Assembly: GCA_029865345.1 (NCBI GenBank)
Contig: JAOUHD010000002.1
Span: forward strand, 1-60,678
DNA: 60,678 nt
Source of the DNA: Nitrospira sp.
GTDB taxonomy: Bacteria > Nitrospirota > Nitrospiria > Nitrospirales > Nitrospiraceae
Reading direction: 5' to 3'
A program made the translations under genes and the position numbers. Of the stretch, positions 42,068-58,063 are shown one piece after another. Below the pieces are notes generated by a model, which saw only the letters and a program-made list of their open reading frames with translations, made no database searches and was not told where the DNA came from. The first letter of the stretch is position 1; each line of letters opens with the position of its first letter.

Positions 42068-42556
42068 ATGAATATGAGGATAAGATTGATTCACGTTCTG
42101 TTGGTTATGGGTCTCGGACTATTATCGAGTTGTGGTGGAGAGCAGGGCGGAGAAGGCCCGATTGTGCCGCCACCTCCAGCTCCTGCAGAATATGCTGATA
42201 AGCGTATGCCGGCAGATTGGTGGGGCGATGCTCAGAAGCTGGAAGAGGGCCGCAAGCTCTTCATCGGCGAGACAAACCCTGATGTGAACTGTGCCAGCTG
42301 TCATGGGAAGGACGGAAAGCCTGTAAAGGCAGGTGCCACGGATTTCCGAAATCCTGAACGCATGAAACTTTATTCAGACTCCGTTTGGTTCTGGCGCATC
42401 TCCGAGGGTGTAGCCAATACCAAGATGAAGGGTTGGAAGAGCAAGCTCTCAGAGGAAGATCGATGGAAGCTCGTGCTCTATGAACGGAATTTTGCACTGT
42501 CCGGAAAAATCTGGAATGAAGAGACGAAGCAGTGGAGTGAGGTTGGTGCGAAGTGA
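42068..42556 (+). CDS. Lipoprotein monoheme cytochrome c
   Basis: LLSSCGG lipobox-like; NCASCHGKDGKP. Confidence 0.88.
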   Translation: MNMRIRLIHVLLVMGLGLLSSCGGEQGGEGPIVPPPPAPAEYADKRMPADWWGDAQKLEEGRKLFIGETNPDVNCASCHGKDGKPVKAGATDFRNPERMKLYSDSVWFWRISEGVANTKMKGWKSKLSEEDRWKLVLYERNFALSGKIWNEETKQWSEVGAK

Positions 42557-42930
42557 GTGGCAGGATCGCAGGGGTTGCTGCTGGAATGTATTCACGTCGT
42601 CAGCGTCCGGGAGTCTATTGCTTGATTGCGCGTTGAAGTCTATGACTCGGGCTTTTGGTTTTTTATTATGTAGTGTTCTGGAATTTCCTAGATAACGGCT
42701 TGTAAATTTGCGATGCTCGGTTGGCCAGTAAGTTCATATCTGTTGACAATTTATATGGAGCCTGGCCTTCAATGTTTCATAGAGTACTAGGTACCTTGTC
42801 AGTATAGTCACTGAGGCTCAGGTTATTACGTGAAGCTCTCGTGGGTATATTTCTCGTTGGGTATATTTATGAATAGTAAGAGTGAGGCTAATATTCTGGA
42901 GTCTGTACTTAATGTAGGGGGCGAGGCATC

Positions 42931-44643
42931 GTGAAAAAACTGTCGAGCAGTCTCCTGGCTCTCATGGTGTTGTTCGCGCTGTGTGTGGCAACTGTCACCA
43001 ATGTCTACGCTCAGGAGGTTGGGGCGTCTTCGGTGGAGTTTCCGTACACCGGTAATCGAACGGCTGTATGGATCGTCGCTCAGCTCCATATCTTGTTTGC
43101 CGCGTTCATTCTCGGTGCGCCAATCTTTGTGGTCATTTCGGAATGGTTGGGATATCGTAAGCAGGACCCACGCTATGATCGTCTCGCCAAAGAGATCACC
43201 AAGGTCACGGTCATTCTCTTCAGCATGACGGCGGTGACTGGCGGCTTCTTTGTTTTCGTCCTTCTTGCGGCCTATCCGCAGTTCACCACATCATTCATTA
43301 ATCAATTTTATGTGGTTTTTGCGATTTTATATCCGGCGTTGTTTATCGCCGAGACCATCCTCATGTATGCCTATCTCTATACGTGGGATGTGTGGAAAGG
43401 TGAAAAGAAGGGGCGTCATATCGCACTGGGCGTGGTCTTGAATCTCGTGTGTTTGCTGATCTTGTTCGTGATCAACGGCCCCACATCGTTCATGAATACC
43501 CCGCCGAAAGCCGAGGGGGTTTCGCCCCAGGATTTTATCGCTGCGGCTACCTTGTGGGATAAGATTGCGAACCAAAGTTGGTTCCCTCTGAGTCTTCACC
43601 GAATCGATGGGAATGTGGCGTTCGGCGGGTTCATTGCCGGACTGATCGCTGCCTATATGTACATGGCGGCGAAGACGCAGGAGGAGAGAGCCTACTATGA
43701 TTGGATGGGTTTCGCTGCTATCTGGATTGCAGTGGGTGGCACACTGTTGCAGCCGTTCACAGGGCTCTTGCTGGCATACGAAATGTGCGATTACGATTTT
43801 TCATTTTGCCCGTACATGATGGCCGACCAGCTGTCCATGTTTTTTGAAATGCAAGGGGTGATGATCGGGCTTCTGTTCTTGGGAATCAACTATTACAGTT
43901 GGCTCAGTGTCAAACGAATCGAAGGAGCCGAAAATGTGCGGACGACCATTCTGGCTCCAATCGTTCTCGTGGTTCTCCTTCCCGCTACCATGTGGGTGAT
44001 GAATAAATATTGGATTCCCGATCCAATGTCGTTGGCGCTCCTGCTACCTCTTGCACTGTCGCCATTTCTGTTCGGTCGGTTCATTCCAATGACGGTCTCT
44101 GCGCGGACTGTCATCAAGATCGGCTTTATCGTCATGCTCGTGAGCGACGCCGTGTGGCTGACTCCTGCCGGATTTGTGGCGACTGGAGCCGATATGCCGG
44201 ATGAACTGAAACTGCCTGAAGGGTGGGACTTTTTGTCGTCGATGCCAGCAAAGCTATCTGCAATCTTGACGCTGGTATTCGTGACGGTCGTCAATTTCGT
44301 CCTGTATAACCGAACCATCAAACAGGGCACGATTCTCTGGGGGAAAATTGATTTTGTCTCGCAGTTCGTTCTGATTTTCTTGGCGTTTACCTCAACGTGG
44401 ATCATGGGCTTGATGGGAGCCGTGCGGTCGTTACTGAAGAAGTATTTCCATGCCTATAGTTTGGTATCTGATTTGTCGGCGGAGTCATTTACGCCGACGC
44501 TCTCGTATTCGGCTGGCTGGATTACAGCGATTACCGTGTTCTTTATTGCCATCGTCAGTCTCGCTGTGCTGATCGCTCTTCGGCCTTCTGTTTCGAGGGC
44601 CCAAGAGCCTGAGGGGAGTCCAGTCCCCGTCGCAGCCAAGTAA
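42931..44643 (+). CDS. CydA-like (cytochrome bd-like) membrane subunit, copy 1
   Basis: WIVAQLHILFAAFILGAPIF; LSLHRIDGNVAFGGFIAG; multi-TM. Confidence 0.82.
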   Translation: MKKLSSSLLALMVLFALCVATVTNVYAQEVGASSVEFPYTGNRTAVWIVAQLHILFAAFILGAPIFVVISEWLGYRKQDPRYDRLAKEITKVTVILFSMTAVTGGFFVFVLLAAYPQFTTSFINQFYVVFAILYPALFIAETILMYAYLYTWDVWKGEKKGRHIALGVVLNLVCLLILFVINGPTSFMNTPPKAEGVSPQDFIAAATLWDKIANQSWFPLSLHRIDGNVAFGGFIAGLIAAYMYMAAKTQEERAYYDWMGFAAIWIAVGGTLLQPFTGLLLAYEMCDYDFSFCPYMMADQLSMFFEMQGVMIGLLFLGINYYSWLSVKRIEGAENVRTTILAPIVLVVLLPATMWVMNKYWIPDPMSLALLLPLALSPFLFGRFIPMTVSARTVIKIGFIVMLVSDAVWLTPAGFVATGADMPDELKLPEGWDFLSSMPAKLSAILTLVFVTVVNFVLYNRTIKQGTILWGKIDFVSQFVLIFLAFTSTWIMGLMGAVRSLLKKYFHAYSLVSDLSAESFTPTLSYSAGWITAITVFFIAIVSLAVLIALRPSVSRAQEPEGSPVPVAAK

Positions 44644-44682
44644 TCACAGTGTAAGACACTTACTGAGGCAACGGGAATTCGC

Positions 44683-45483
44683 ATGGGGAATATATTGAAA
44701 AAGCTAGGTGTTGGATTGGCGGTCGGTGGAGTGTTGGTTGGTATCGCGCGATCGCAGGCAGTGCCGGCTGACTTTCAAGTGCTGTTCTTTGTCATCGCGC
44801 TGATCGGGGCGATCATCTTCATGCTGCTTGACGCGCAGCCGATCAGAACCATGAGTGGTGGGAAGTCCCTTGTTTCCGTCGTGGCATTTGGGGTCCTCCT
44901 GATTACCGCTGGTGTAGCCGGGCCCTCGTTGTTGCCGCAGTTTAATCCAGAAGACGAAAAAGCAAAAATCGGCAAACTTCTTGAGAAGGAGCGAAAGCAG
45001 TCAGCACAGGGGAAGGCGGATGAACTGATTGCTCGTGTTAAGGCTCTCGATGCACAAGTCAAAGCGCTTGAGGATCGGCTGAAGGGTCTTGGCGGAGTTC
45101 AGGCTGCGTCGACGCCTCCGGCTGGGGAGAAACCCCCTACCGCAGCGAGTGCGAGCGCGGGTGATTTTATGAAGGTGGGCGAGGAGCAGTGGCAACTGCA
45201 AGAGTGTTACAACTGTCACAAGCTTCGGGGTGAGGGTGGAAAGAAGCGAGGTCCAGAATTGGATAATATCGGCACGTTGCTAACTGTCGATGAGATTCAA
45301 GAGAAAATTTCGAACCCCAAGAGTTTTATGGCCGAGGGGTATGAGAAGGAATGGCAGAAGGGCATCATGCCCAACAAGTTTAAAGATCTGATGGATCCCA
45401 AGGAAATGCAGGCTCTTGCTGCCTGGTTAGGGACGTTCAAGAACACCTCGGTGAATACCCCCAAGCCGATCAAGAAAAACTAA
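44683..45483 (+). CDS. Membrane-anchored cytochrome c with coiled-coil segment
   Basis: N-terminal TM helices, coiled coil ADELIARVKALDAQVKALEDRLKG, ECYNCHKLRGEGG. Confidence 0.88.
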   Translation: MGNILKKLGVGLAVGGVLVGIARSQAVPADFQVLFFVIALIGAIIFMLLDAQPIRTMSGGKSLVSVVAFGVLLITAGVAGPSLLPQFNPEDEKAKIGKLLEKERKQSAQGKADELIARVKALDAQVKALEDRLKGLGGVQAASTPPAGEKPPTAASASAGDFMKVGEEQWQLQECYNCHKLRGEGGKKRGPELDNIGTLLTVDEIQEKISNPKSFMAEGYEKEWQKGIMPNKFKDLMDPKEMQALAAWLGTFKNTSVNTPKPIKKN

Positions 45484-46418
45484 TGCTGCAACCGAAGCTG
45501 AAATCCAAGGTTCAGTGCACCGACCTCAACATCGGCGAAGTCACGAAAGTCGTGCTTGATCCGCTTTCCCATGAGATCAGCCACATCGTGGTATCGGTGA
45601 ATGGGAGCGGTGAGCGACAAGTTGCCATGGGCCATGTCCAGGTTGTGACGGACGATCTTGTGCAGTTGCGTGCGCCGTCAACGGAGATCTTGGCGTTACC
45701 TCCCTTTAAGCGAGAGGACTATGTCACCACGCATGAAGTGGAGATCTCACATCTCGAAGACCATATCCATGTGACCCCGGGTGAGGTGTTGGTTCCTCTG
45801 CCGGATCTGGAGAAAAGTGTTAAACGCCGCACGTTTTTCATGAATTTCACCACTGTCATTGGGTTTTTGATCGGTCTTCCCATTGCCTATCCGATTCTCC
45901 GCTTTCTCATGAAGCCGATGTATGCTGATTTCGACAATGAATGGCTGAAAGTGGGGAATGTCAGCAAGATCAAGCAAGTAGATGTTGGTGTGCAGTTTAA
46001 GTACAAGAAAAAGGTCAAAGAAGCCTATATGCCAGAGGCCGAAGTCGATAAAAATGTCTGGGTGTTACAGGCCACTCCAGAGCTTCTAGGGAAAGTCTAT
46101 CAAGGTAAGGACGCCGAATTCCGTGATGCCAGAGGAAAGACTATCTGGACCAACAAGAAAGATGTTCCCTACCTCGCGTTCTCCGGCAAGTGCCCGCATT
46201 TAGGGTGTGCGTTCAAGTGGCGACAGCATAAAGCACTTGGACAAGTCTTTCTCTGTCCGTGCCATCTCAGTATTTATGATGCGGCGGGAAAAGTACTCGA
46301 TGGCCCGGCCCCGCGCGCCCTTGACGCATTGCCTGTGAGGGTTTCTGCAGGGGGAGAGGTTGAGGTCATCGACATGGAGTTCAAGGCCGGTACGAAGTCG
46401 CAAATTCGGATCATTTGA
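45483..46418 (+). CDS. Rieske 2Fe-2S protein with extra N-terminal PRC-barrel-like domain
   Basis: GKCPHLGCAFKW ... FLCPCHLSIYD; N-terminal ~110 aa precede the TM anchor. Confidence 0.9.
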   Translation: MLQPKLKSKVQCTDLNIGEVTKVVLDPLSHEISHIVVSVNGSGERQVAMGHVQVVTDDLVQLRAPSTEILALPPFKREDYVTTHEVEISHLEDHIHVTPGEVLVPLPDLEKSVKRRTFFMNFTTVIGFLIGLPIAYPILRFLMKPMYADFDNEWLKVGNVSKIKQVDVGVQFKYKKKVKEAYMPEAEVDKNVWVLQATPELLGKVYQGKDAEFRDARGKTIWTNKKDVPYLAFSGKCPHLGCAFKWRQHKALGQVFLCPCHLSIYDAAGKVLDGPAPRALDALPVRVSAGGEVEVIDMEFKAGTKSQIRII

Positions 46419-46429
46419 AAGCTGGCGAT

Positions 46430-47557
46430 ATGGATAGTAAGCATTCATCCCCTGCAACGATTTCCGATCATCAGCCCAGCACGATCGAACGGCTTGTCGC
46501 TTTCCTAGACGAACGTGTTGGCCTCAAGGAAATGCAGGCCAAGATGCTCAATGAGCCGCTTCCTGGTGGGTCTCGGTGGGCCTACGTGTTCGGCTCTATC
46601 CTGTTATTCATCTTTGCGATGCAGGCGCTGACGGGCACGTTGCTTATGTTCTATTATGTGCCGACGGCAGACCACGCCTGGGCCAGTACGCAATATATTA
46701 TTCACGACGTTGATTATGGTTGGTTCCTTCTGGGCTACCATTTTTGGGGGTCCAGTGCGATGGTGGTCTGTGTGATCGCCCACATGTCGCAGGTATTTCT
46801 CTGGGGCGCGTATAAAAAGCCGCGAGAGTTACTCTGGATCGTCGGGCTAGCCCTATTCGGTGTGGTGATCACATTCGGATTTACAGGCTATCTCTTGCCT
46901 TGGGACCAGCGGGCGTTCTGGGCGACGACGGTTGGTGTCGAAATTTTGGATAAGACCCCCGTTATCGGCGATTTTATTGCTCGATTTCTGAAAGGAGGCC
47001 CGACTCCTGGGCAGATGACATTGAGCCGATTCTTCGTCCTGCATGTGATGGTTCTCCCAGCTGCACTCATGGCCCTCGCCGGACTCCATCTCTTTCTGTT
47101 TCGCGTGGCCGCTCCTGCTGGACCCTTTACCGGTACAGTGGAAGAGCTCAAGGCGAAGACCGACTACTTCTTTCCCCGTCAGATTTGGAAGGACATGGTC
47201 GGGATGGCGTTCGTCTTCGTTAGTATCTGCGCCTTGGCCCTTTGGGAACCGGTCGTCTTATTGGACGAGGCAGCGCCAGACCCAGGGGACTACCATCCTG
47301 AACCTGAATGGTACTTTCTGTTTTACTTCCAGCTGCTCCGGTTGAAACTGTTCGCGGGTGAGTTCGGCCAATTTATGGGGGCTGTGGCGTTGCCGGTTGC
47401 CTTCATGGTGTTGCTTGTCGCGCTCCCGTTCATCGACAAGGATCCCGAGCGGAATATTTTCAAGCGACCAATTGCCCTCATCAGCTGGATTGCGATCATG
47501 GTGTTCATTCTCTTGTTCACGGTTGCTTCAGTGATTAACCGAGAGTTCTTGGATTAG
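46430..47557 (+). CDS. Cytochrome b (fused b/subunit IV type)
   Basis: RWAYVFGSILLFIFAMQALTGTLL; GYLLPWDQRAFWATTV; PEPEWYFLFYFQLLRL. Confidence 0.93.
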   Translation: MDSKHSSPATISDHQPSTIERLVAFLDERVGLKEMQAKMLNEPLPGGSRWAYVFGSILLFIFAMQALTGTLLMFYYVPTADHAWASTQYIIHDVDYGWFLLGYHFWGSSAMVVCVIAHMSQVFLWGAYKKPRELLWIVGLALFGVVITFGFTGYLLPWDQRAFWATTVGVEILDKTPVIGDFIARFLKGGPTPGQMTLSRFFVLHVMVLPAALMALAGLHLFLFRVAAPAGPFTGTVEELKAKTDYFFPRQIWKDMVGMAFVFVSICALALWEPVVLLDEAAPDPGDYHPEPEWYFLFYFQLLRLKLFAGEFGQFMGAVALPVAFMVLLVALPFIDKDPERNIFKRPIALISWIAIMVFILLFTVASVINREFLD

Positions 47558-47575
47558 CCCTAGGACAGATTAGCT

Positions 47576-48580
47576 ATGGCTGAAGATCGCGAAGCGATGT
47601 CTCCGACGAAGATCGGGTTCAGCATCCTCTGGGCCGCCTGTTGGACTGGGATTCCTATTAAGGCGGTGTTTGCGGTGCTTGCCATGACGATGGGTTTGGT
47701 CCATTTTGAAGGAAGGTTCGGCCTTGCCTTCTTGATAGTGTTTGCCAGTCCCATGACCGTCTTTGCCGTTCCCATCATCATCGCCATGTTTGAGACGCAG
47801 TTTGGTGAAGGAATCGGTCTGCCGATTATTTTTGGGATGTCGATTCCGGTCGACATTTGGGCGCTGGGACTTGTTGGGAGAACGTTCTTCTTGGAACGAC
47901 TTCGGAAAGAGCCACCCCATGATGGACTTGGTTTTGCGATCTGGTGGAGAGCGGCGCTCATTGGGACTTTCTTTTTTCCGCTCCTCTGGTGTATTGTCAG
48001 CCGGGTCACGGAAATTGCCATTGCTGCGTCGCACTCAATGGCCGAAATGGAAAGCATGAGACAGCTCTTTGACACGGGTCTTCCTATTGCGGAACGAATC
48101 GGTCTTGAGCTCACGATTTGGGGATCTATTTCGTCCGCAGTCTTGATCGTTTTGGCGGTCATCGGGATTTCCATTCTTGGGCAGAGCATTCGACGCATGG
48201 CGGAAATTGCCCGTCCGGTGTCTGCAAATTATCAAGGGCTCATTACCCGTTGGGATTTGATGCGAGTGCCGACCGATCAAGGGCTGATGTTGACGTCGTT
48301 GACGGGTGTGGGCGTCGTGTTCTCACTGATGTTTTGGTCGATGCTTCCCGTGACGACTCCCCATCCGCATGAATGCTGTAAAAGACCTGATGTACGGGTC
48401 GAGCCGGTATTCAAACCGGTCGAGTCGTTGAGCAGCAGTGCTCAGCGTATAGCGACGCTTGCGGCACAAATTGGGGCCATGGAGCAGCAAAAGGTCGCCA
48501 CAATAGATCAAAAAGAAAAGGGCAAGGGGAAGGCCGAAGGTGAAACGGCTAAGGACTCTTCTGCCAAGACGAAACCGTAA
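47576..48580 (+). CDS. Uncharacterised multi-TM protein within the respiratory cluster
   Basis: 334 aa, about 5-6 hydrophobic segments, charged coiled-coil C-terminus. Confidence 0.75.
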   Translation: MAEDREAMSPTKIGFSILWAACWTGIPIKAVFAVLAMTMGLVHFEGRFGLAFLIVFASPMTVFAVPIIIAMFETQFGEGIGLPIIFGMSIPVDIWALGLVGRTFFLERLRKEPPHDGLGFAIWWRAALIGTFFFPLLWCIVSRVTEIAIAASHSMAEMESMRQLFDTGLPIAERIGLELTIWGSISSAVLIVLAVIGISILGQSIRRMAEIARPVSANYQGLITRWDLMRVPTDQGLMLTSLTGVGVVFSLMFWSMLPVTTPHPHECCKRPDVRVEPVFKPVESLSSSAQRIATLAAQIGAMEQQKVATIDQKEKGKGKAEGETAKDSSAKTKP

Positions 48581-48596
48581 CTTACGAGGTGATGAG

Positions 48597-50456
48597 GTGA
48601 GCGTCATACAGCAAGGGGTTAGCATAGTTCAACGGGCTCTCCGGGCCGTCGGAAGTCACGACGGATGGCTCGCAGGTCTCTTGTTGATGGCGGGATGGCT
48701 GGCCCTTCCTTCACTCGGGATTGCAGCTGAGGGCACAACCGCGGGTCCTACAGAGTATCGTGATATTCCTTACGTCGGTAGTCGGAATCTTGTTTGGATC
48801 GTTGCCCAGTTGCATCTCTTATTGGCCGGGTTCGTTTTAGGTGTGCCAATGTTTGCCTGGCTATGCGAAGTCATTGCCTGGAGGGGAGGCGAGAAGCGTT
48901 ATGACAAGCTCGCCAAGGAGTTTACCAAGCTCCTGACGTCCGCCTATTCGACCACCGCGTTGTTCGGTGGCATTCTGTTGTTTCTATTGGTGGCGTTCTA
49001 CCCCAAACTGATGAACTATTTGACAGACGTCTTTTTCCCCTCCTTCTTGCTCTATTGCTTCCTGTTCTTATTAGAAACGGCGACGCTGTATCTGTATTGG
49101 TATGGGTGGGATGCCATGCAGGATGGCAGGAAGAAGACATTGCATGTGTTTCTCGGGTTTCTCCTGAACTTCTTTGCCTTATTCATTATGATTATCCCCA
49201 ATGCCTGGGCTACGTTCCAGTCCAGCCCGGTTGTGATTGCAGACGGGACTGCCTTTGAGAGGGCCTGGGCGGCAACGTGGAATCCAACCTGGTGGCCGAT
49301 CAACATCCATCGCCTTATCGCGAACGTCGTCCTTGGAGGTTATATCTGCGGGGCCTATGCCGGTGTCCGGTACTTATCGGTGAAGAGTCCTGAAGAGCGA
49401 GAACATTACGATTGGATGGGGTATGTCGGCAACTTTATCGGTGTGTTCGGTCTGCTGGCCCTACCGTTTGCCGGCTATTGGCTCATGCGGGAAATCTACC
49501 AGTACAACCAGCAGATGGGCATTACCCTGATGGGAGGATTCCTGTCCTGGCTCTTCATCCTCCAGGCCATGTTGATCGGGGTCCTGTTCCTCGGCTCGAA
49601 CTATTATTTTTGGCTGGGGATTACCTATCGAATTCCCGGGTCAGAGGGTAAATATCGCCGAGCCATGTTGATGATGTTAGTCAGTCTGTTGCTGTGTCTT
49701 GCCGTGTGGATGACCCCGCACTCCCTTGTGGCTAGCATTGAAGAGGCTCAGAAAATGGGAGGGGCCCACCATCCATTGCTCGGTGTCCTCGGTGTTATGT
49801 CGGCAAAAATGACGGTCTCCAACCTCATGATCCTGATTACGTTCATGAGCTTCGTCATGTATTGGCGGGCAGGGAAACAGGATACAGCCGGGTGGGCGAA
49901 GCTGGCGAAAGCGGTCATGGGTGCCGTGTTGGTGTTGGCAAGCATTGCGGTCATCGTCCTCGGCGTCTGGGGGTATTTCGTGCCGGCGATCGTCCGCATC
50001 AATTATTTCTCTACGTCTCAGGTGCTGATCGTCATCTTTGTCATTCTGACGATCACGCCGTTGACGGCGCTGTTGCTCAAGAGCGCAAAAACGACGACAG
50101 AGATGGTGTGGGGGAGCATGCCGCCACGCGCTGGGTATTCCTTGGTTCTCAATGCCATCATGGTCATCCTCCTCATGACCTTGATGGGCTATGCGCGGTC
50201 CTCGTCCCGTGTCCACTGGCATGTGTACGGAGTCATGCGCGATACCTCGCCCTATGCCTATTCGCCGGCGCTGGGCAGCGCGTCGTTTATTATGGCTTTC
50301 TGTACATTTTCCTTCTGCCTTATCGTGGCGTTTATCTTTTGGGTCGCAACCATGGGCGATAAGTACAAGGCGGCTCCAGGACCGGGGAAGGGAGAGCTGC
50401 CGCACGGCATTCCGGCGATGGCCGGAGGGGCTCCAGAAGAGCGGTCACAGAGATAA
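48597..50456 (+). CDS. CydA-like (cytochrome bd-like) membrane subunit, copy 2
   Basis: WIVAQLHLLLAGFVLGVPMF; INIHRLIANVVLGGYICG; colinear with copy 1; GTG start after GAGGTGATGAG. Confidence 0.82.
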   Translation: MSVIQQGVSIVQRALRAVGSHDGWLAGLLLMAGWLALPSLGIAAEGTTAGPTEYRDIPYVGSRNLVWIVAQLHLLLAGFVLGVPMFAWLCEVIAWRGGEKRYDKLAKEFTKLLTSAYSTTALFGGILLFLLVAFYPKLMNYLTDVFFPSFLLYCFLFLLETATLYLYWYGWDAMQDGRKKTLHVFLGFLLNFFALFIMIIPNAWATFQSSPVVIADGTAFERAWAATWNPTWWPINIHRLIANVVLGGYICGAYAGVRYLSVKSPEEREHYDWMGYVGNFIGVFGLLALPFAGYWLMREIYQYNQQMGITLMGGFLSWLFILQAMLIGVLFLGSNYYFWLGITYRIPGSEGKYRRAMLMMLVSLLLCLAVWMTPHSLVASIEEAQKMGGAHHPLLGVLGVMSAKMTVSNLMILITFMSFVMYWRAGKQDTAGWAKLAKAVMGAVLVLASIAVIVLGVWGYFVPAIVRINYFSTSQVLIVIFVILTITPLTALLLKSAKTTTEMVWGSMPPRAGYSLVLNAIMVILLMTLMGYARSSSRVHWHVYGVMRDTSPYAYSPALGSASFIMAFCTFSFCLIVAFIFWVATMGDKYKAAPGPGKGELPHGIPAMAGGAPEERSQR

Positions 50457-50535
50457 AGATAATTTTGAATTTTGATTATGAGTTTTAAGTTAGGGACGAA
50501 AAACTAAGAACTCAGCACTTAACATTCGAGGGCCC

Positions 50536-51159
50536 ATGAGTGAAGTCGCACAACTACAACTAATCGCACTGTCCATAATTGGGATCGGCATTCTGATCCT
50601 GTTGTTCATCAAGGCCGTGTTTGTGAGGGTGACGGGATTCGTTGCTATCGTGCTGGGGTTGTTTGCACTGATGTCGCTTGCCGTACCCCAGCTGGCCTCT
50701 CTGCCTCCTGCCGAGGAAAAGATCGATATTGCCAATATCAAGACACCGACTGATATTGCTGCCATCGGCCAGACGGTCTTCTTCAGCAAAGGCCAATGTG
50801 CACTGTGTCATTCCATCGGGCCAAGTGAATCGGCCCGTTGTCCGGATTTGAAGGGAATCGGCGCTAAGTTGAGCAAGGATTTCCTCTTTGAAAGCCTAAC
50901 GGATCCCCAGGCGTTCGTGTATAAGGATTACCGCCATGGTGGCGTGCCGAAAGACTATCCAGCCACGATGCCAGCTATCAATAAGGATCCGATCGGACTC
51001 TCGAAGAATGAAATATTGGCCATTATCGCGTTTCTGCAGCAAATGAGCGGGGAGCCGATCTCTGTCAGCACGTCGGAGCTTGATATCCCTGGGAAGGCCC
51101 CGTCTGCGCCGGTGAAGGCCGCGCAAGCTGCGCTTGTTGCCGACGCACACACGAATTAG
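50536..51159 (+). CDS. Membrane-anchored monoheme cytochrome c
   Basis: Two N-terminal TM segments; GQCALCHSIGPSE. Confidence 0.88.
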   Translation: MSEVAQLQLIALSIIGIGILILLFIKAVFVRVTGFVAIVLGLFALMSLAVPQLASLPPAEEKIDIANIKTPTDIAAIGQTVFFSKGQCALCHSIGPSESARCPDLKGIGAKLSKDFLFESLTDPQAFVYKDYRHGGVPKDYPATMPAINKDPIGLSKNEILAIIAFLQQMSGEPISVSTSELDIPGKAPSAPVKAAQAALVADAHTN

Positions 51160-51174
51160 GGAGGAAGGATTGTT

Positions 51175-51891
51175 ATGGGAGCGTTAGGGAAGCCAATCAT
51201 TCTCATGGTCGCCATGTATGCGTTTCTGAAGTTTGGGTTGCCTAACATACCTGGCTCTGCCCCCCTTCCCTCCAGCCTCATATTTCTGTACCTCTTGCTG
51301 ACTGCGGGCGGCATTTTCATGTTTAAAACATTGAGCGGTGAATCGAAGGATGCCTTCTGGGATCCAATTCGACGATTTCTGACCGGAGAGAACATCGGTG
51401 GTCTGCAAGCGCTTCGCTATGGCGTGTTCATTCTGTTTCCGTTGCTGGTGGGCTGGCAAACATACGGAAGTACGGCAGTGAGCGACCTCCCTCCGACGGA
51501 AAGCCGAACAATTCATCCAGCACCGCCAGGGGAATACACGGGCCTGTCAAATCCTGTTCCTAAAACTCCTGAAAATATTATGCAGGGGAAGGGTTTTTAC
51601 GCTGCCTATTGCTCACCATGTCATGGTGGAAACTTTGACGGGAAGGGGCCGGCGGCTCGTGGATTTATTCCAGCGCCTGCCAATTTTGCCGACCCCACGA
51701 CGATCGCTATGTTGCAAGAAAGCTATCTATTCTGGCGCATCAAAAAGGGCGGCGTCGGTCTTCCGATTGAAGGTGCACCATGGAAGTCGGCTATGCCTCG
51801 TTGGGAAGTCGAGTTGCCCGATGAATGGATTTGGAAGATCATCTTAGGTGAGTACGACGGCGCGCATCAATCCCCACGAACCTGGGAGTAG
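51175..51891 (+). CDS. Membrane-anchored monoheme cytochrome c
   Basis: N-terminal TM helices; AAYCSPCHGGNFDGKGPAARGF. Confidence 0.88.
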   Translation: MGALGKPIILMVAMYAFLKFGLPNIPGSAPLPSSLIFLYLLLTAGGIFMFKTLSGESKDAFWDPIRRFLTGENIGGLQALRYGVFILFPLLVGWQTYGSTAVSDLPPTESRTIHPAPPGEYTGLSNPVPKTPENIMQGKGFYAAYCSPCHGGNFDGKGPAARGFIPAPANFADPTTIAMLQESYLFWRIKKGGVGLPIEGAPWKSAMPRWEVELPDEWIWKIILGEYDGAHQSPRTWE

Positions 51892-51919
51892 CGGGAAGGA
51901 ACAGCGTGGATCGATCTAG

Positions 51920-52771
51920 TTGTGGAGGGAGCACGAGGACAGCATGAAACCGGCGAATCGCATCATGAAACAGGTTTTGCGGGGTGGAACGGCAGCAATC
52001 GCAGCCATGATTATTGGTGGAGCATCGCTTGGCTATGCACAGGAGAGTGTCTCGGTTCGAGCGACGCTTCTGACTGGGGGCGTACCCGTAGATGATCCAA
52101 GTGCGGCAGTCTGGAGCAGTGCACCGCCTGCTACGTTTCCGATGTCACCGCAAGTCCATTGGCAGAATCGTATTCAGGAAGTGACCGTTAAGGATGTCAT
52201 CGTGCGTGCCTTGCATGACGGTACACAAGTGGCTGTGCTGGTCGAATATACCGATCCTACTCAGGATCCCGATGACGCAGCAGCACTGGAGTTTATGGTG
52301 GGTGATAAGAAGGCACATTTCGCCCATGGCCAGCCAATGCTCCAGGTAGAAGGCGGGCCGGTCAATATTTGGTTCTGGAAAAATAAGACCGGCAAGGCCA
52401 TCGACATGAGTGCGAAAGGTTTTGGCACATTAAAGCCACAAGAACATCAGGATGTGACAGCCAAGGGCGTCTATTCTAACGGGACATGGAAAGTCGTATT
52501 TGCAAGGAAATTGTTGACTGGGCATGCTGATGAGGATGTGCAAATTACGGCAGGACAATTCATGAGTATCTCCTTTGCAGTATGGGACGGACGAAAAGAT
52601 GCCGTCGGCGAATTGGTTGAAAAGGGGTCTCAAAAAGCGGTCTCGTCTTGGTGGTATTTCCGAGCCGATGCCCCGCCTGATTATTCCGGCTATATGTACG
52701 CGGCGATCGCTGCTGTATTGGGCTTGGGGTTTCAGTTTGTCCTGATCCGAAAACTCAAGAAAGGGCAGTGA
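51920..52771 (+). CDS. NxrC/ethylbenzene-dehydrogenase gamma-like heme-binding protein
   Basis: Signal peptide; VRATLLTGGVPVDDPSAAVWSSAPPATFPMSPQ ... VKDVIVRALHDGTQVAVLVEYTDPTQD; C-terminal TM anchor. Confidence 0.7.
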   Translation: MWREHEDSMKPANRIMKQVLRGGTAAIAAMIIGGASLGYAQESVSVRATLLTGGVPVDDPSAAVWSSAPPATFPMSPQVHWQNRIQEVTVKDVIVRALHDGTQVAVLVEYTDPTQDPDDAAALEFMVGDKKAHFAHGQPMLQVEGGPVNIWFWKNKTGKAIDMSAKGFGTLKPQEHQDVTAKGVYSNGTWKVVFARKLLTGHADEDVQITAGQFMSISFAVWDGRKDAVGELVEKGSQKAVSSWWYFRADAPPDYSGYMYAAIAAVLGLGFQFVLIRKLKKGQ

Positions 52772-53799
52772 GCATGAAGGCGCCAAGGCTGGGTATCATA
52801 GGATTGGCAGTGGGCGTGATCGGAGGCTTGGCTTTCATCACCGGTGGCTGCGCCAACGAACAGGAAAAACGTGGGCATGAACTCTATACCCACTATTGCA
52901 GCGATTGTCACGGCGAGAGCGGAAAGCAAAATGAAGGGTTTAATTGGTCGGCTATGCCCGATCCAAAGCCTAAGGATTTGTCGAATAAGTCAGAAATGAG
53001 CACGTTCAAGGATGAGGAGCTCTTTGCGACTATCTCGCGGGACATGCTGGACACCAGTGAGGAAGGTGGAGATACGATCGGAGATGACGACTTTGCCGTG
53101 CCCACTATGCCGACCTTTAAATATACGCTCTCTGAGGATGAACTCTGGTCGATTGTCGGATATGTGCGCACGTTGCACGGAACGAAGATGGAGTTTAACG
53201 TCGCGGCACGCAAGACTTCCTTGGAAGAAGGATTGAAGACCGCTCAGGCCAAGTTTGAACAGGCCAAGCAGGCCTATGAAGCAGCCGAAAAGAAAGCCAG
53301 CGATGAAGCGGAGCGGAAGAGCGAGCAGTTGAAGAAAGATGTCGATGTGGATGAATCCGCTTATGCGGCTGAACAAGCAACGATGGGGCAAGCCAAGAAA
53401 GAGATGGATGTGGCCCAGGTTGCCCTCAACAATTTCTCTACGAGAGCGGGAAAGGGACTCAGTATTCCTAGGCCAGATCTGACGGTCAAGCCTGCAGACG
53501 TTGCAAAATTGGTCGATCGTGGCAAGCAACTCTATGAAAATAAGTATGGTTGCAACGGGTGCCACAATGTCGGCGGTGAAGGCGGTAAGATCGGTCCCGC
53601 GTTGGATCGAGCCGGATTTCGGTTGAATGCCACGTGGGTGTATCGTTGGCTCAAGAATCCACAGGCGATGGATTCGCACACACGGATGCCCGCCTTGGGT
53701 TTGAATGATGCGGATGCCAAAGCTGTGACGATGTATGTGGCCACCTTACGGGCGCCAAAGTCTGAACCTGTAGCCGAGAAGCCGGTCGAAAAGCCCTAA
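52768..53799 (+). CDS. Diheme cytochrome c with coiled-coil spacer
   Basis: CSDCHGESGK and CNGCHNVGGEGGK separated by a Lys/Glu/Ala-rich coiled coil. Confidence 0.88.
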   Translation: MSMKAPRLGIIGLAVGVIGGLAFITGGCANEQEKRGHELYTHYCSDCHGESGKQNEGFNWSAMPDPKPKDLSNKSEMSTFKDEELFATISRDMLDTSEEGGDTIGDDDFAVPTMPTFKYTLSEDELWSIVGYVRTLHGTKMEFNVAARKTSLEEGLKTAQAKFEQAKQAYEAAEKKASDEAERKSEQLKKDVDVDESAYAAEQATMGQAKKEMDVAQVALNNFSTRAGKGLSIPRPDLTVKPADVAKLVDRGKQLYENKYGCNGCHNVGGEGGKIGPALDRAGFRLNATWVYRWLKNPQAMDSHTRMPALGLNDADAKAVTMYVATLRAPKSEPVAEKPVEKP

Positions 53800-54686
53800 C
53801 CCACTAACCCGACGAGTAATCCGAGAAGGATGGCAGCGCCTGCCCAGACGTGTGCGCGAAACATGGCGAACGCGTGAGTCGGTGTCATCGGTCTCCGCAG
53901 GCGCATGACCTGGAGTATGAAAAATACCGATACGCCCAATAGTGCTGCATAATATGGCCACCTGAGCTGAGCGAACCACCCTGCGGCGATTAAGCACACC
54001 AGCATGATACTGAACGCCAATCCCACGCCGTGGTGAACCGAATCCCCGAAGTACAGCGCGGCTGACTTGACCCCAACGCGTCGATCATCCTCCTGGTCTT
54101 GGATCGCGTAGATCGTGTCATAGGCTATGGCCCAGGCGGCGGTTGCTCCAAAGAGACACCACGCTGAGCTCTCTAATTGTCCTCGCACCGCAGCCCAAGC
54201 CATGATCGTTCCCCAGCCGAACGCTATGCCAAGCATGGCTTGCGGGATATGAATCCATCGTTTGGAGTATGGGTAGAGGGCGGCAAGAAAGGCCGCGACC
54301 GGGGCGAGCCAGGTTACGATCGGCAGAAGGAAGAATAGGAGGCTTGCCGCCACGACAAGCAGCAGGCTGAGTAGAATCAGCGCATGGCGGCGTGACAATT
54401 CGCCAGAAGCCAACGGACGCGTCTTAGTCCGTGCGACTTGCCGGTCAAATGTTTCATCTGCTAAATCATTCATAATGACGCCAGCGCTTCTCATGAGGAA
54501 CGATCCGCCGATGAAAATAACTAATAGGTGAGGCGGAGGAATCCCTCGAGCAGCCAGCACGAGGCTCCAGAGCGTGGGCAGGAGTAAGAGATAGGTACCG
54601 GTCTGGTTTGGCAGCCGGATCAATCGGGCAAGCGCAGACCAAGAAATTCCAGAGGAAGTGGATGAAGACGCGACCGGACCGGACAT
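53796..54686 (-). CDS. ubiA: UbiA-family prenyltransferase
   Basis: NDLADETFDRQVARTKTRPLASGELS; AYDTIYAIQDQEDDRRVGVKSAAL. Confidence 0.92.
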   Translation of the reverse strand: MSGPVASSSTSSGISWSALARLIRLPNQTGTYLLLLPTLWSLVLAARGIPPPHLLVIFIGGSFLMRSAGVIMNDLADETFDRQVARTKTRPLASGELSRRHALILLSLLLVVAASLLFFLLPIVTWLAPVAAFLAALYPYSKRWIHIPQAMLGIAFGWGTIMAWAAVRGQLESSAWCLFGATAAWAIAYDTIYAIQDQEDDRRVGVKSAALYFGDSVHHGVGLAFSIMLVCLIAAGWFAQLRWPYYAALLGVSVFFILQVMRLRRPMTPTHAFAMFRAHVWAGAAILLGLLVGLVG

Positions 54687-54771: not shown

Positions 54772-56814
54772 GTGAACAAGCTACAACCTATACTGACTGG
54801 TTATTCCCAGTCATGCCGCCACATTCTTATCTCCTGCGTGGTGCTTATACTCGTCCTATCAGGTGTCGGCTGTTCGCTGCTCAAGCGAGGGAAGGAACCG
54901 GTCAGTACTCAACCGATTCCTCTGACGCCGGTGATCTGGTTTTCCCCCAGTGTGACCACGGCTGAGGTGCCATACCACGATGGTTGTGGCGAGGTGAGAT
55001 CCTTGTCCCTGACGCATGCGCTTGTCACTTCCGTTCCGAGGAAGTTGACGGGAGTCTTTACCGGTGTCGCGGCCCAGAGCCACGCGGATGAACCCATCGC
55101 CTCAGACGGAGTGGTTGAAGTTGGAGTGGGAGTGAGGCGGATCGAGCTCGCCGTTCCAAAGCAAACGCCTGGAACCTATCCCGCAAAGGTCACGGTGGGA
55201 ATTGAAATGGTGTTTTTAGCGCGCGAGGGAACGTTGCTCTTCAATAAGAAGTTCGAAGGTACCGGCCTTGGTATGGTAATGGTCGGAGAACAGCCGTGTC
55301 AGGTGGAGGGGCTGGAGGCGATAGTTCAAGATGCCATTGACTCCGCGACCAACGGATTGGCTCAACAGATCGGGCAATCGGCGCAGATCCGGGAGTACGC
55401 TGCTCAAAGAGACACATGGGTTCCAGTAGCATCACGTCCACGCTCCTCCGTGGAGCCGTCGGCAGCGGGCCTTATCACGTCGCTCCCCACGGTGATGGAG
55501 GCAACGGAAAAACAACCGCAGGTGGCTTCGAGTACGACAGGTAGGCCAGCGCAACTGAGTTTTCGTGCCATTATCCGAGATGAAAACGGAGACCTATTCC
55601 TTCAGCCTGACGAATCCCTCACGATCCAAATTGAAGTCAAAAACGAGGGCCTGGGGGAGGCAAAAGATGTGATGGTGATAGTTGAAGGAAAAACCGACTT
55701 AGCGGCTTTGTTTCCCTCTGAAGTCCACCTCGGCATGCTCCAATCGGGAGAGATTAAACGGACCTCGATGACACAGCGGGTGACTGCCGCTCAAGAGGCC
55801 CTCCATGGAGAATTAACGCTGAACTTGCGGACGACTAGTCCGGTGACGTCCGTTCCGCCACCCAAGGTTTTTAGTTTTGGGGTCAAACCCAGAGGCATCA
55901 ACCCGGCTCTGGTTCCGAATGTCGACAACCTGCCGAATTCTCTGGCGGCGTTCCATCAGCCGAAGGCCATCATCATTTCGATCGGCATCGGGACGTTTCG
56001 AGACGAACAGATGCCGGCGGTCAAGTATGCGCGCCACGATGCGGAAGTCATGGCTGAATATCTGCGCATCATCGGCGGTGTCCCAGGCGAGCGCATCCGC
56101 ATACTGCTCGACCGACAGGCCCTCGAACGGGATCTGGAAGACGTGTTTGAGCAATGGCTGCGAAAGCGGGCGGACCGAGAGACCGTTGTGTATATATTTT
56201 TTGCCGGGCGAGCACTCGTAGATGGCGGGACCGGTGCGATCTCGCTTGTGCCACATGATGGGACACTCTCCGAGGCGAAGCAGCAGCTATACCCACTTGC
56301 CCGCCTTCAGGAGGCGCTCTCTCGATTGCCAATCCGGCGGGCAATTCTGATGTTTGATGTCTCGATGGACCCGTCTCCTGGCGCTGGTCTTGCCGACATC
56401 CCTTCGCCTGCCTGGGAATCCCCTGTCAGCGAGGCCCGGAAAGATGTGGAGATGTGGATGGTGGGTAATCGAAGCTTGCAAGAGGCCGATCCGTATGACG
56501 AAGGCAAGCACGGGTTGTTTACCTATCATCTGTTAAGGGGTTTGCAAGGTCTCGCTGATGTGGATCGAGATGGAACGGTCATCGCCGGTGAACTCTGTAC
56601 CTATGCTCGTGGACAGGCGGCTCTGGTGGCTCGTGAACAATTCGGGAACAAACAAGATGCGCTCTGTCTACCCGCGACTGGCCGGGGAGGCATGGTGCGA
56701 ATCCATCCGCTGGCGAGAGGTCATAACCCAAAACCTGGTCCGATACAGAAGCCTCCACACCTTCCTGCTGATTCATCAGTTGCAGGCCCCAATCCGATGC
56801 AGATTGGGCCATAA
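54772..56814 (+). CDS. Lipoprotein with CARDB-like domain and degenerate caspase-like (peptidase C14) domain
   Basis: Lipobox LSGVGC; ENGDLFLQPDESLTIQIEVKNEG; caspase-like KAIIISIGIGTFRDEQMPAVKYARHDAEVMAEYL. Confidence 0.75.
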   Translation: MNKLQPILTGYSQSCRHILISCVVLILVLSGVGCSLLKRGKEPVSTQPIPLTPVIWFSPSVTTAEVPYHDGCGEVRSLSLTHALVTSVPRKLTGVFTGVAAQSHADEPIASDGVVEVGVGVRRIELAVPKQTPGTYPAKVTVGIEMVFLAREGTLLFNKKFEGTGLGMVMVGEQPCQVEGLEAIVQDAIDSATNGLAQQIGQSAQIREYAAQRDTWVPVASRPRSSVEPSAAGLITSLPTVMEATEKQPQVASSTTGRPAQLSFRAIIRDENGDLFLQPDESLTIQIEVKNEGLGEAKDVMVIVEGKTDLAALFPSEVHLGMLQSGEIKRTSMTQRVTAAQEALHGELTLNLRTTSPVTSVPPPKVFSFGVKPRGINPALVPNVDNLPNSLAAFHQPKAIIISIGIGTFRDEQMPAVKYARHDAEVMAEYLRIIGGVPGERIRILLDRQALERDLEDVFEQWLRKRADRETVVYIFFAGRALVDGGTGAISLVPHDGTLSEAKQQLYPLARLQEALSRLPIRRAILMFDVSMDPSPGAGLADIPSPAWESPVSEARKDVEMWMVGNRSLQEADPYDEGKHGLFTYHLLRGLQGLADVDRDGTVIAGELCTYARGQAALVAREQFGNKQDALCLPATGRGGMVRIHPLARGHNPKPGPIQKPPHLPADSSVAGPNPMQIGP

Positions 56815-56911: not shown

Positions 56912-56987
56912 GCCGGCGTAGCTCAGTTGGTAGAGCAGCGGTTTCGTAAACCGCAGGTCGCCTGTTCAATCCAGGTCGCCGGCTCCA
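56912..56987 (+). tRNA. tRNA-Thr (anticodon CGT)
   Basis: GCCGGCG...GCGGT-TTCGTAA-ACCGC...CGCCGGC-T-CCA. Confidence 0.92.
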
Positions 56988-56992
56988 TTCTT

Positions 56993-58063
56993 TCAACAGC
57001 TTAGAGAAGCCTCACCAGATCGAACCTGCGATTGTGCTAATTTTGTGCTAAACGACCGCCCTGGCTCCAACGCCTCTACCCCTTCTCGCAAGCTTTCCGG
57101 GTAATGATGGGCATAGCGCTGCGTCATGATCGGCGACTTATGCCCGAGGAGACGCTGCACCTTGTACAGGTCCACCCCGGCCTGGACGATCCGCGTGGCA
57201 AACGTATGGCGAAGATCATGGAAGTGGAAATCTTGAATCTTCGCCAGCATCAGCGCGGTATTCAGCCCTCGCCGTATGTTGCTGCCATCGAGAGTTGTCC
57301 CGGCATGGCTATGAAACACCACATCAGTCATCCGTGAACGTGCCGCGTGCTTGTCTTTGAGCAGATCAAGGACGATTGAGTTGATCGGGATTGTCCGCCG
57401 TTCTCCGTTTTTTGACCGAAAGATCGTGACGGTTCGACGGAACAGATCGACACCGGCCCAGGTGAGGGCCAGAATCTCTCCCATACGCATCCCGGTATTG
57501 ACAGCAAACACGATGACTTCGCGCAGCCATGGAGCGGTGGCGGGCAGAAGCCGCTGCTCTTCCTCTACAGTCAACCAGCGGTCCCGCGTATTGTTCTCTC
57601 GCTCCATCGAGACTCGGCACACGGGATTATCGGTGCACCACTCCCATTCTCGACGAGCCAGGTTAAACGCCTTCTTCAAGGTCGCGAGCTCCCGGTTGAT
57701 CGTGGCTGGTTTGACGCCATCGGTATACCGCTTGTTCTTGTAGGCCACGATCAGCTTCGGCGTGATGTGATCCAGTGTTGGATTCCCAAAAAAGTTCTTG
57801 AGATTCTGGATACTGGTCAATTCCCGCCGGTGATTCGCGCGCCTTGCCGCATGTTCATTCGCGTAACGATCCATGAGTTCGGCTAAGCTCCGCTCTTGTG
57901 CTTCCTGCTTCTCAAAGAACCGACCTTCAATGATTTGGACCTTGACCTTGCCTAAGATCGCCTCGGCCAGCCGCTTATCACCAGTTCCTGTGGATCGTCT
58001 GACCTGCTGGCCGCGATACGTGAACGACATCCACCACGTGTTCCCTCTTTTTGCGAGCCCCAT
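56993..58063 (-). CDS. Tyrosine recombinase/integrase
   Basis: NTGMRMGEILALTWAGVD; FHFHDLRHTFATRIVQAG; LLGHKSPIMTQRYAHH. Confidence 0.95.
   Translation of the reverse strand: MGLAKRGNTWWMSFTYRGQQVRRSTGTGDKRLAEAILGKVKVQIIEGRFFEKQEAQERSLAELMDRYANEHAARRANHRRELTSIQNLKNFFGNPTLDHITPKLIVAYKNKRYTDGVKPATINRELATLKKAFNLARREWEWCTDNPVCRVSMERENNTRDRWLTVEEEQRLLPATAPWLREVIVFAVNTGMRMGEILALTWAGVDLFRRTVTIFRSKNGERRTIPINSIVLDLLKDKHAARSRMTDVVFHSHAGTTLDGSNIRRGLNTALMLAKIQDFHFHDLRHTFATRIVQAGVDLYKVQRLLGHKSPIMTQRYAHHYPESLREGVEALEPGRSFSTKLAQSQVRSGEASLSC

Follow-up and report, generated by a model that had tools for sequence, protein, structure and literature searches.

A cluster of eleven genes in the genome of Nitrospira sp. 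(GenBank assembly GCA_029865345.1) probably encodes the main complex III of this organism together with its oxidase: a bd-type enzyme linked to cytochrome c, lying beside the bc complex and joined to it by cytochromes. The cluster occupies positions 42068-53799 (+) of the window, i.e., the whole 60,678-nucleotide stretch analyzed here (contig JAOUHD010000002.1, designated C22, of the 3.33 Mb draft genome G000). The open reading frame list, Pfam and NCBIfam returned all eleven genes with the identities and in the order given by an earlier note on this DNA:

42068..42556, + strand: cytc1, monoheme cytochrome c lipoprotein (CxxCH at 75, lipobox Cys22)
42931..44643, + strand: bd1, CydA-like membrane protein (PF01654, Cyt_bd_oxida_I, 1.4e-23), bd-like_1 of N. 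moscoviensis
44683..45483, + strand: cytc2, membrane-anchored monoheme cytochrome c (CxxCH at 175)
45483..46418, + strand: Rieske iron-sulfur protein (PF00355, 1e-8), with a weakly PRC-barrel-like N-terminal extension
46415..47557, + strand: cytochrome b (PF00033, 6.6e-49), a single chain with about eight hydrophobic segments
47576..48580, + strand: unk, membrane protein of no known family
48540..50456, + strand: bd2, CydA-like membrane protein (PF01654, 2.9e-18), bd-like_2, NIDE0901-like
50536..51159, + strand: cytc3, membrane-anchored monoheme cytochrome c
51175..51891, + strand: cytc4, membrane-anchored monoheme cytochrome c
51920..52771, + strand: NxrC-like protein (alt_nxrC_1), periplasmic heme b protein with EB_dh fold and C-terminal membrane anchor
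52768..53799, + strand: diheme cytochrome c lipoprotein (CxxCH at 44 and 262)

From bd1 to the diheme cytochrome gene, adjacent genes overlap slightly or lie at most 79 bp apart, consistent with a single transcription unit; cytc1 is located upstream, with a gap of 374 bp to bd1. The true start of bd2 is probably not 48540 but the GTG at 48597, where a relative starts.

The assignment of bd2 as the presumed oxidase is supported by its CydA fold, the retention of the heme-ligand positions of Escherichia coli CydA and the loss of the quinol-site residues K252 and E257. The predicted model of bd2 (pLDDT 79, pTM 0.79) gave ten Foldseek matches in PDB at E<=0.001, all of them CydA chains (1.1e-8 to 1.3e-5), with CydB chains following near 1e-2. 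In E. coli CydA, H19, H186, M393 and E445 are heme ligands, while K252 and E257 belong to the quinol site. The E. coli residues H19, E107, H126, H186 and M393 align with H53, E141, H163, H223, and M438 of bd1 and with H92, E179, H202, H257, and M420 of bd2, whereas K252 and E257 are replaced in 20 of 20 CydA-like rows. The same 20 rows all carry an extra histidine (H507 in bd1, H561 in bd2), which the four canonical or outgroup rows all lack; the alignment to E. coli CydA is less certain in its C-terminal half. Compared with the canonical CydAB quinol oxidase, the locus is alike in CydA homology and fold, but lacks CydB, the quinol site and E445, and has the added invariant histidine. In the phylogenetic tree, bd1 branches apart from bd2, bd3, bd4 and the remaining rows (support 99/99), the canonical rows being long branches of unsure position.

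Neither a CydB family nor a heme-copper subunit was detected within the locus by Pfam and NCBIfam, as the earlier note had observed; its hint that no oxidase is present was misleading, bd2 being the presumed cytochrome c oxidase. Elsewhere, the host genome encodes canonical CydB (C190), two further CydA-like genes (C35) and NxrA (C61), and a profile search of it for heme-copper oxidase subunit I (COX1, PF00115) gave no match. The oxidase role is best supported by elimination in a relative, G039 of family f3. Its complete single-contig genome encodes nitrite oxidoreductase (NXR), while COX1 and CydB were sought and not found, AOX and similar enzymes not being among the searches; the CydA-like family is therefore the only O2 reductase found there among those searched.

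The Rieske protein and cytochrome b have the hallmarks of a bc1/b6f core. The Rieske motif is complete (invariant C237, H239, C242, C258, C260, and H261), and cytochrome b contains four heme histidines, H109/H123 with 13 residues between them and H210/H225 with 14 between them, as well as PEWY at 297. The spacing of the second pair is like that of cytochrome b6. The cluster motif, the four histidines and PEWY are common to the locus and to bc1/b6f complexes; the locus differs from them in combining this spacing with a one-chain cytochrome b, in the N-terminal extension of the Rieske protein, and in the lack of a recognized cytochrome c1 or f. No family of the latter reaches its Pfam or NCBIfam cut-off in the locus, and several small cytochromes c are present instead as candidates. 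The likeness of the Rieske extension (window 45483-45700) to a PRC barrel is weak, with an E value of 0.015, below the cut-off.

In the proposed scheme, the Rieske protein and cytochrome b would form a b6f/bc-type core exchanging electrons between quinones and c-type cytochromes, in a direction that the sequence does not set. The bd2 protein would be the O2-reducing subunit of an OR-N type oxidase that has lost its quinol site, with electrons probably delivered from cytochrome c via cytc3, cytc4, the diheme cytochrome and the heme b protein alt_NxrC_1. Together with cytc1 and cytc2, bd1 may constitute a second CydA-type unit that bears heme, can be separated from bd2 and probably adjoins the bc core. 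The one-helix core of unk may either belong to the bc core as a small subunit or link the bc and bd2 parts. We infer O2 reduction by bd2, cytochrome c as its donor, and physical contact between the parts. This interpretation is further supported by the conserved gene order, by the recurrence of bd2-cytc3-cytc4-NxrC as a paralogous set around bd3, and by the high transcript levels of the orthologous cluster in N. moscoviensis (PMC6606698).

Several points weigh against it. Both bd1 and bd2 have lost the E. coli ligand E445, and their third heme site must therefore be different. Family f4 has the bc part and bd1 without bd2, COX1 or CydB, indicating that the cluster is not always tied to a bd2 oxidase. 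The elimination argument leaves out O2-using oxidases such as AOX, and no biochemistry of any Nitrospirota OR-N protein, nor an isolated presumed oxidase, was found in the literature.

The combined architecture that the earlier note singled out is not new, its observation being a correct rediscovery. The cluster of N. moscoviensis was described in 2019 as complex III_1, bd-like_1, bd-like_2 (complex IV), alt_nxrC_1 and cytochromes c; it was strongly transcribed, a III-IV supercomplex that might contact NXR was proposed, and a role was suggested for alt_nxrC_1 (Mundinger et al., 2019; PMC6606698). The N. moscoviensis locus (L189, NZ_CP011801.1) has the same eleven genes, including the bd1 orthologue, in the same order, with 53-85% protein identity and the same UbiA neighbor; nothing essential differs apart from the species. 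The NIDE0901-like protein has been designated OR-N2, a presumed cytochrome c oxidase with the companion OR-N1 (PMC12342949). The labels OR-N1 type for bd1 and OR-N2 type for bd2 are used here as relayed by literature citing the original scheme (PMC12342949, PMC10839748), the assignment following the N. moscoviensis orthologues and PMC12342949 rather than placement in the published OR-N tree. The new elements are the conservation counts, the separability of bd1 and bd2, the tracking of bd2 by the NxrC-like gene, and the residue comparison.

Conservation of the gene order in relatives, on which the earlier note had made its proposal depend, is borne out by the synteny survey. The exact eleven-gene order occurs in 48 of the 49 named loci with enough flanking sequence, far beyond chance; in the remaining one (L188, on a contig apparently the same as that of L039) the genes follow one another in the same way, but an insert of about 3.5 kb separates cytc3 from cytc4. 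The arrangement is conserved across the order Nitrospirales; up to the ends of the contigs, it is also kept in the 25 loci sampled from families f1, f2, and f3. Outside that order but within the class, all eleven genes are found in sequence in three genomes, G205 (f8), G211 and G266 (both f9). Absence of the cluster from G012 was considered and rejected: a contig break has left fragments at the end of C5 and the start of C4.

Within this order, three blocks can be recognized: A (cytc1-bd1-cytc2), B (Rieske-cytochrome b-unk), and C (bd2-cytc3-cytc4-NxrC-diheme cytochrome c), the last of which recurs around bd3 in a paralogous copy. The f4 locus, situated mid-contig in G037, comprises blocks A and B, cytc3 and diheme cytochromes, and is devoid of bd2, cytc4 and the NxrC-like gene; no match to a bd2-type protein, COX1 or CydB was obtained in any of the four f4 genomes. 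In G112, G241, and G070, bd1 and its cytochromes c are present with no adjoining Rieske and cytochrome b genes; G070 carries a bd2-like gene elsewhere, and the distant genomes G112 and G241 contain bd1 without bd2. A cytc1 homologue adjoins the bd1 genes in relatives and is apparently fused with cytc2 in G241 and G070. Conversely, families f7, f10, f11, and f12 encode bd2-type proteins and no bd1. In another relative (G171, f5), two tandem CydA-like genes lie beside cytochromes (L126:7686-11781), the first being apparently broken by a stop.

The best-surviving alternative, proposed by the earlier note and in PMC6606698, is that the bc core, bd1, bd2 and all cytochromes make up one fixed particle, an idea that we consider tenable with somewhat less than even probability. 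The tight order kept over several families, the many membrane-anchored cytochromes c, and the position of unk, encoded exactly between the bc part and the bd2 part, speak for it. The linkage of a bc core with two CydA-like genes is indeed real, but the notion of a single obligate machine is weakened, as bd1 and bd2 do not always occur together: the parts are separable in other lineages, and co-regulation alone also results in a conserved order. No complexome study of Nitrospira was found in the literature, the sole match citing anammox work.

The unk protein has no match among Pfam and NCBIfam families or PDB folds. Its conserved core is one helix near the C terminus (WDLMRVP..DQ..FW..LPVTTPHPHE), and some of its homologues are short: 91-126 aa with a single helix in f8/f9, and 172 residues in one f4 genome. 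The multi-helix N-terminal part occurs only in f1-f3, families that also possess NXR; these may share one ancestor, in which case the co-occurrence could reflect a single event. Short unk homologues were noted in f4 at L054:9862-10377 and L057:9949-10680, the L054 copy ending in histidine-rich repeats (GGPDHDM) that are perhaps metal-binding. The possibility that unk is a hidden CydB was rejected, with no fold match and an hhalign probability of 1.8%; the unk model is weak (pLDDT 69), and a fold match could be missed.

Another explanation, suggested in the literature for OR-N1 and OR-N2 (PMC12342949, PMC10839748), is an obligate CydAA'-type heterodimer with bd1 in the role of CydB. The locus resembles this proposed type in the CydA fold, the heme-ligand positions, the lost quinol site and the two paralogues per locus; moreover, it lacks CydB, and bd1 and bd2 are located in one unit in f1, f2, f3, f8, and f9. 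An archaeal CydAA', reportedly described by Murali in 2021, is said to provide a precedent. The paralogues are, however, separable across Nitrospirota: the occurrence of bd1 without bd2 in f4 (4/4 genomes), G112 and G241, and of bd2-type proteins without bd1 in f7 and f10-f12, makes obligate pairing appear unlikely from the gene distribution. In addition, bd1 keeps a full set of heme ligands that would be needless for a passive CydB-like subunit.

The remaining alternatives are improbable. According to the first, bd1 is a built-in subunit of the bc complex rather than the oxidase's partner. The bc complex would then be a quinone:cytochrome c complex that includes a heme b subunit of CydA type and has its own cytochromes c, and some lineages would have acquired the bd2 oxidase block in addition. 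We give this little weight; if true, f4, with Rieske, cytochrome b, unk and bd1 and without bd2 or a recognized oxidase, would be a natural example.

Docking of NXR to the oxidase by alt_NxrC_1 (PMC6606698) is also doubtful. The protein belongs to the EB_dh family (PF09459, 1.7e-22) and to the heme b subunits of type II DMSO reductases (TIGR03477, NCBIfam, 3.2e-30), with invariant M126, M140, M163, and K239. Homology to the gamma subunit of these enzymes is consistent with docking, as is the presence in G164 and G221 of an NxrA-like enzyme beside a bd-like protein and cytochromes c. The presence of NXR was judged with the NxrA of the host genome as query, TIGR03479 being too unspecific either way; genomes of f1-f3 match, except G022, and no match was found in f4, f8, f9 or the other relatives tested. 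Despite this, the NxrC-like gene adjoins bd2 in the three f8/f9 genomes (97-99% complete), and the f4 locus lacks both genes. The NxrC-like gene thus appears to follow bd2 rather than NXR, a pattern that is suggestive, not final, coming from three f8/f9 genomes; the protein has an EB_dh heme b domain as in NXR gamma subunits and does not always occur together with NxrA.

Genome G022 (single contig, 99% complete; locus L041) belongs to the genus Nitrospira and has the full cluster, with no NxrA match at E<=1e-20; either the gene was lost or a repeat is missing from the assembly. In phylum-level relatives (L120:350-10123 and L122:142-10288), genes for an NxrA-like molybdenum subunit, an iron-sulfur subunit, an NxrC-like gamma subunit, a bd-like protein and two cytochromes c form one run; over its length, the NxrA-like subunit of L120 shares 40% identity with NxrA of Nitrospira.

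It is similarly improbable that the CydA-like proteins, instead of being oxidases, transfer electrons as quinone-linked subunits in reverse electron flow, a role put forward for the bd-like protein of both Nitrospina and anammox bacteria: anaerobic anammox bacteria keep a related bd-like gene (PMC3578206) and f4 keeps bd1 without any recognized oxidase, but bd1 and bd2 have no quinol-site residues, the NXR-bearing G039 would be left with no recognized O2 reductase, and the anammox argument concerns the second alternative NxrC cluster (bd3 type), not bd2.

Among other described systems, TO_1/TO_2 of Candidatus Manganitrophaceae (PMC9040806) likewise combine a bd2-type protein with cytochromes c and with an NxrC-like heme b protein located in the periplasm. 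The f7/f10 loci match the published TO_2, and the genomes probably belong to Manganitrophaceae. In f7, two antiporter-type proteins (PF00361) directly precede a bd2-cytochrome c fusion; the arrangement in f10 resembles this. TO_2-like loci differ from the Nitrospira cluster by these two MrpD-like genes, the fusion, the absence of bd1, and Rieske and cytochrome b genes of another type, which are split. Pairs of genes, each about 510 codons long, were also noted directly upstream of bd2-type/cytochrome c fusions in L123, L124, and L125; the L124 pair was checked and belongs to PF00361.

On its right-hand side the cluster meets a convergent neighbor that is syntenic in nearly all relatives and probably not part of the unit:

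53796..54686, - strand: UbiA-type prenyltransferase

Further downstream, positions 54772-56814 encode a protein that weakly matches a caspase-like domain (NF047832, E 1.2e-8, below the cut-off). The interval 56912-58063 holds tRNA-Thr (56912-56987, +) and, immediately after it, an integrase-like open reading frame on the opposite strand, a possible integration site. Plasmid origin of the cluster was rejected, bd2 having no plasmid match.

How Nitrospira, a dominant nitrite oxidizer, reduces O2 is unsettled, and the presumed oxidase has apparently never been isolated. Genomes in which alt_NxrC_1 occurs in the absence of NXR point to a function of this subunit on the oxidase side. The comparison across Nitrospirota makes the supercomplex idea testable, as the lineages with only bd1 or only bd2 show which proteins must pair.

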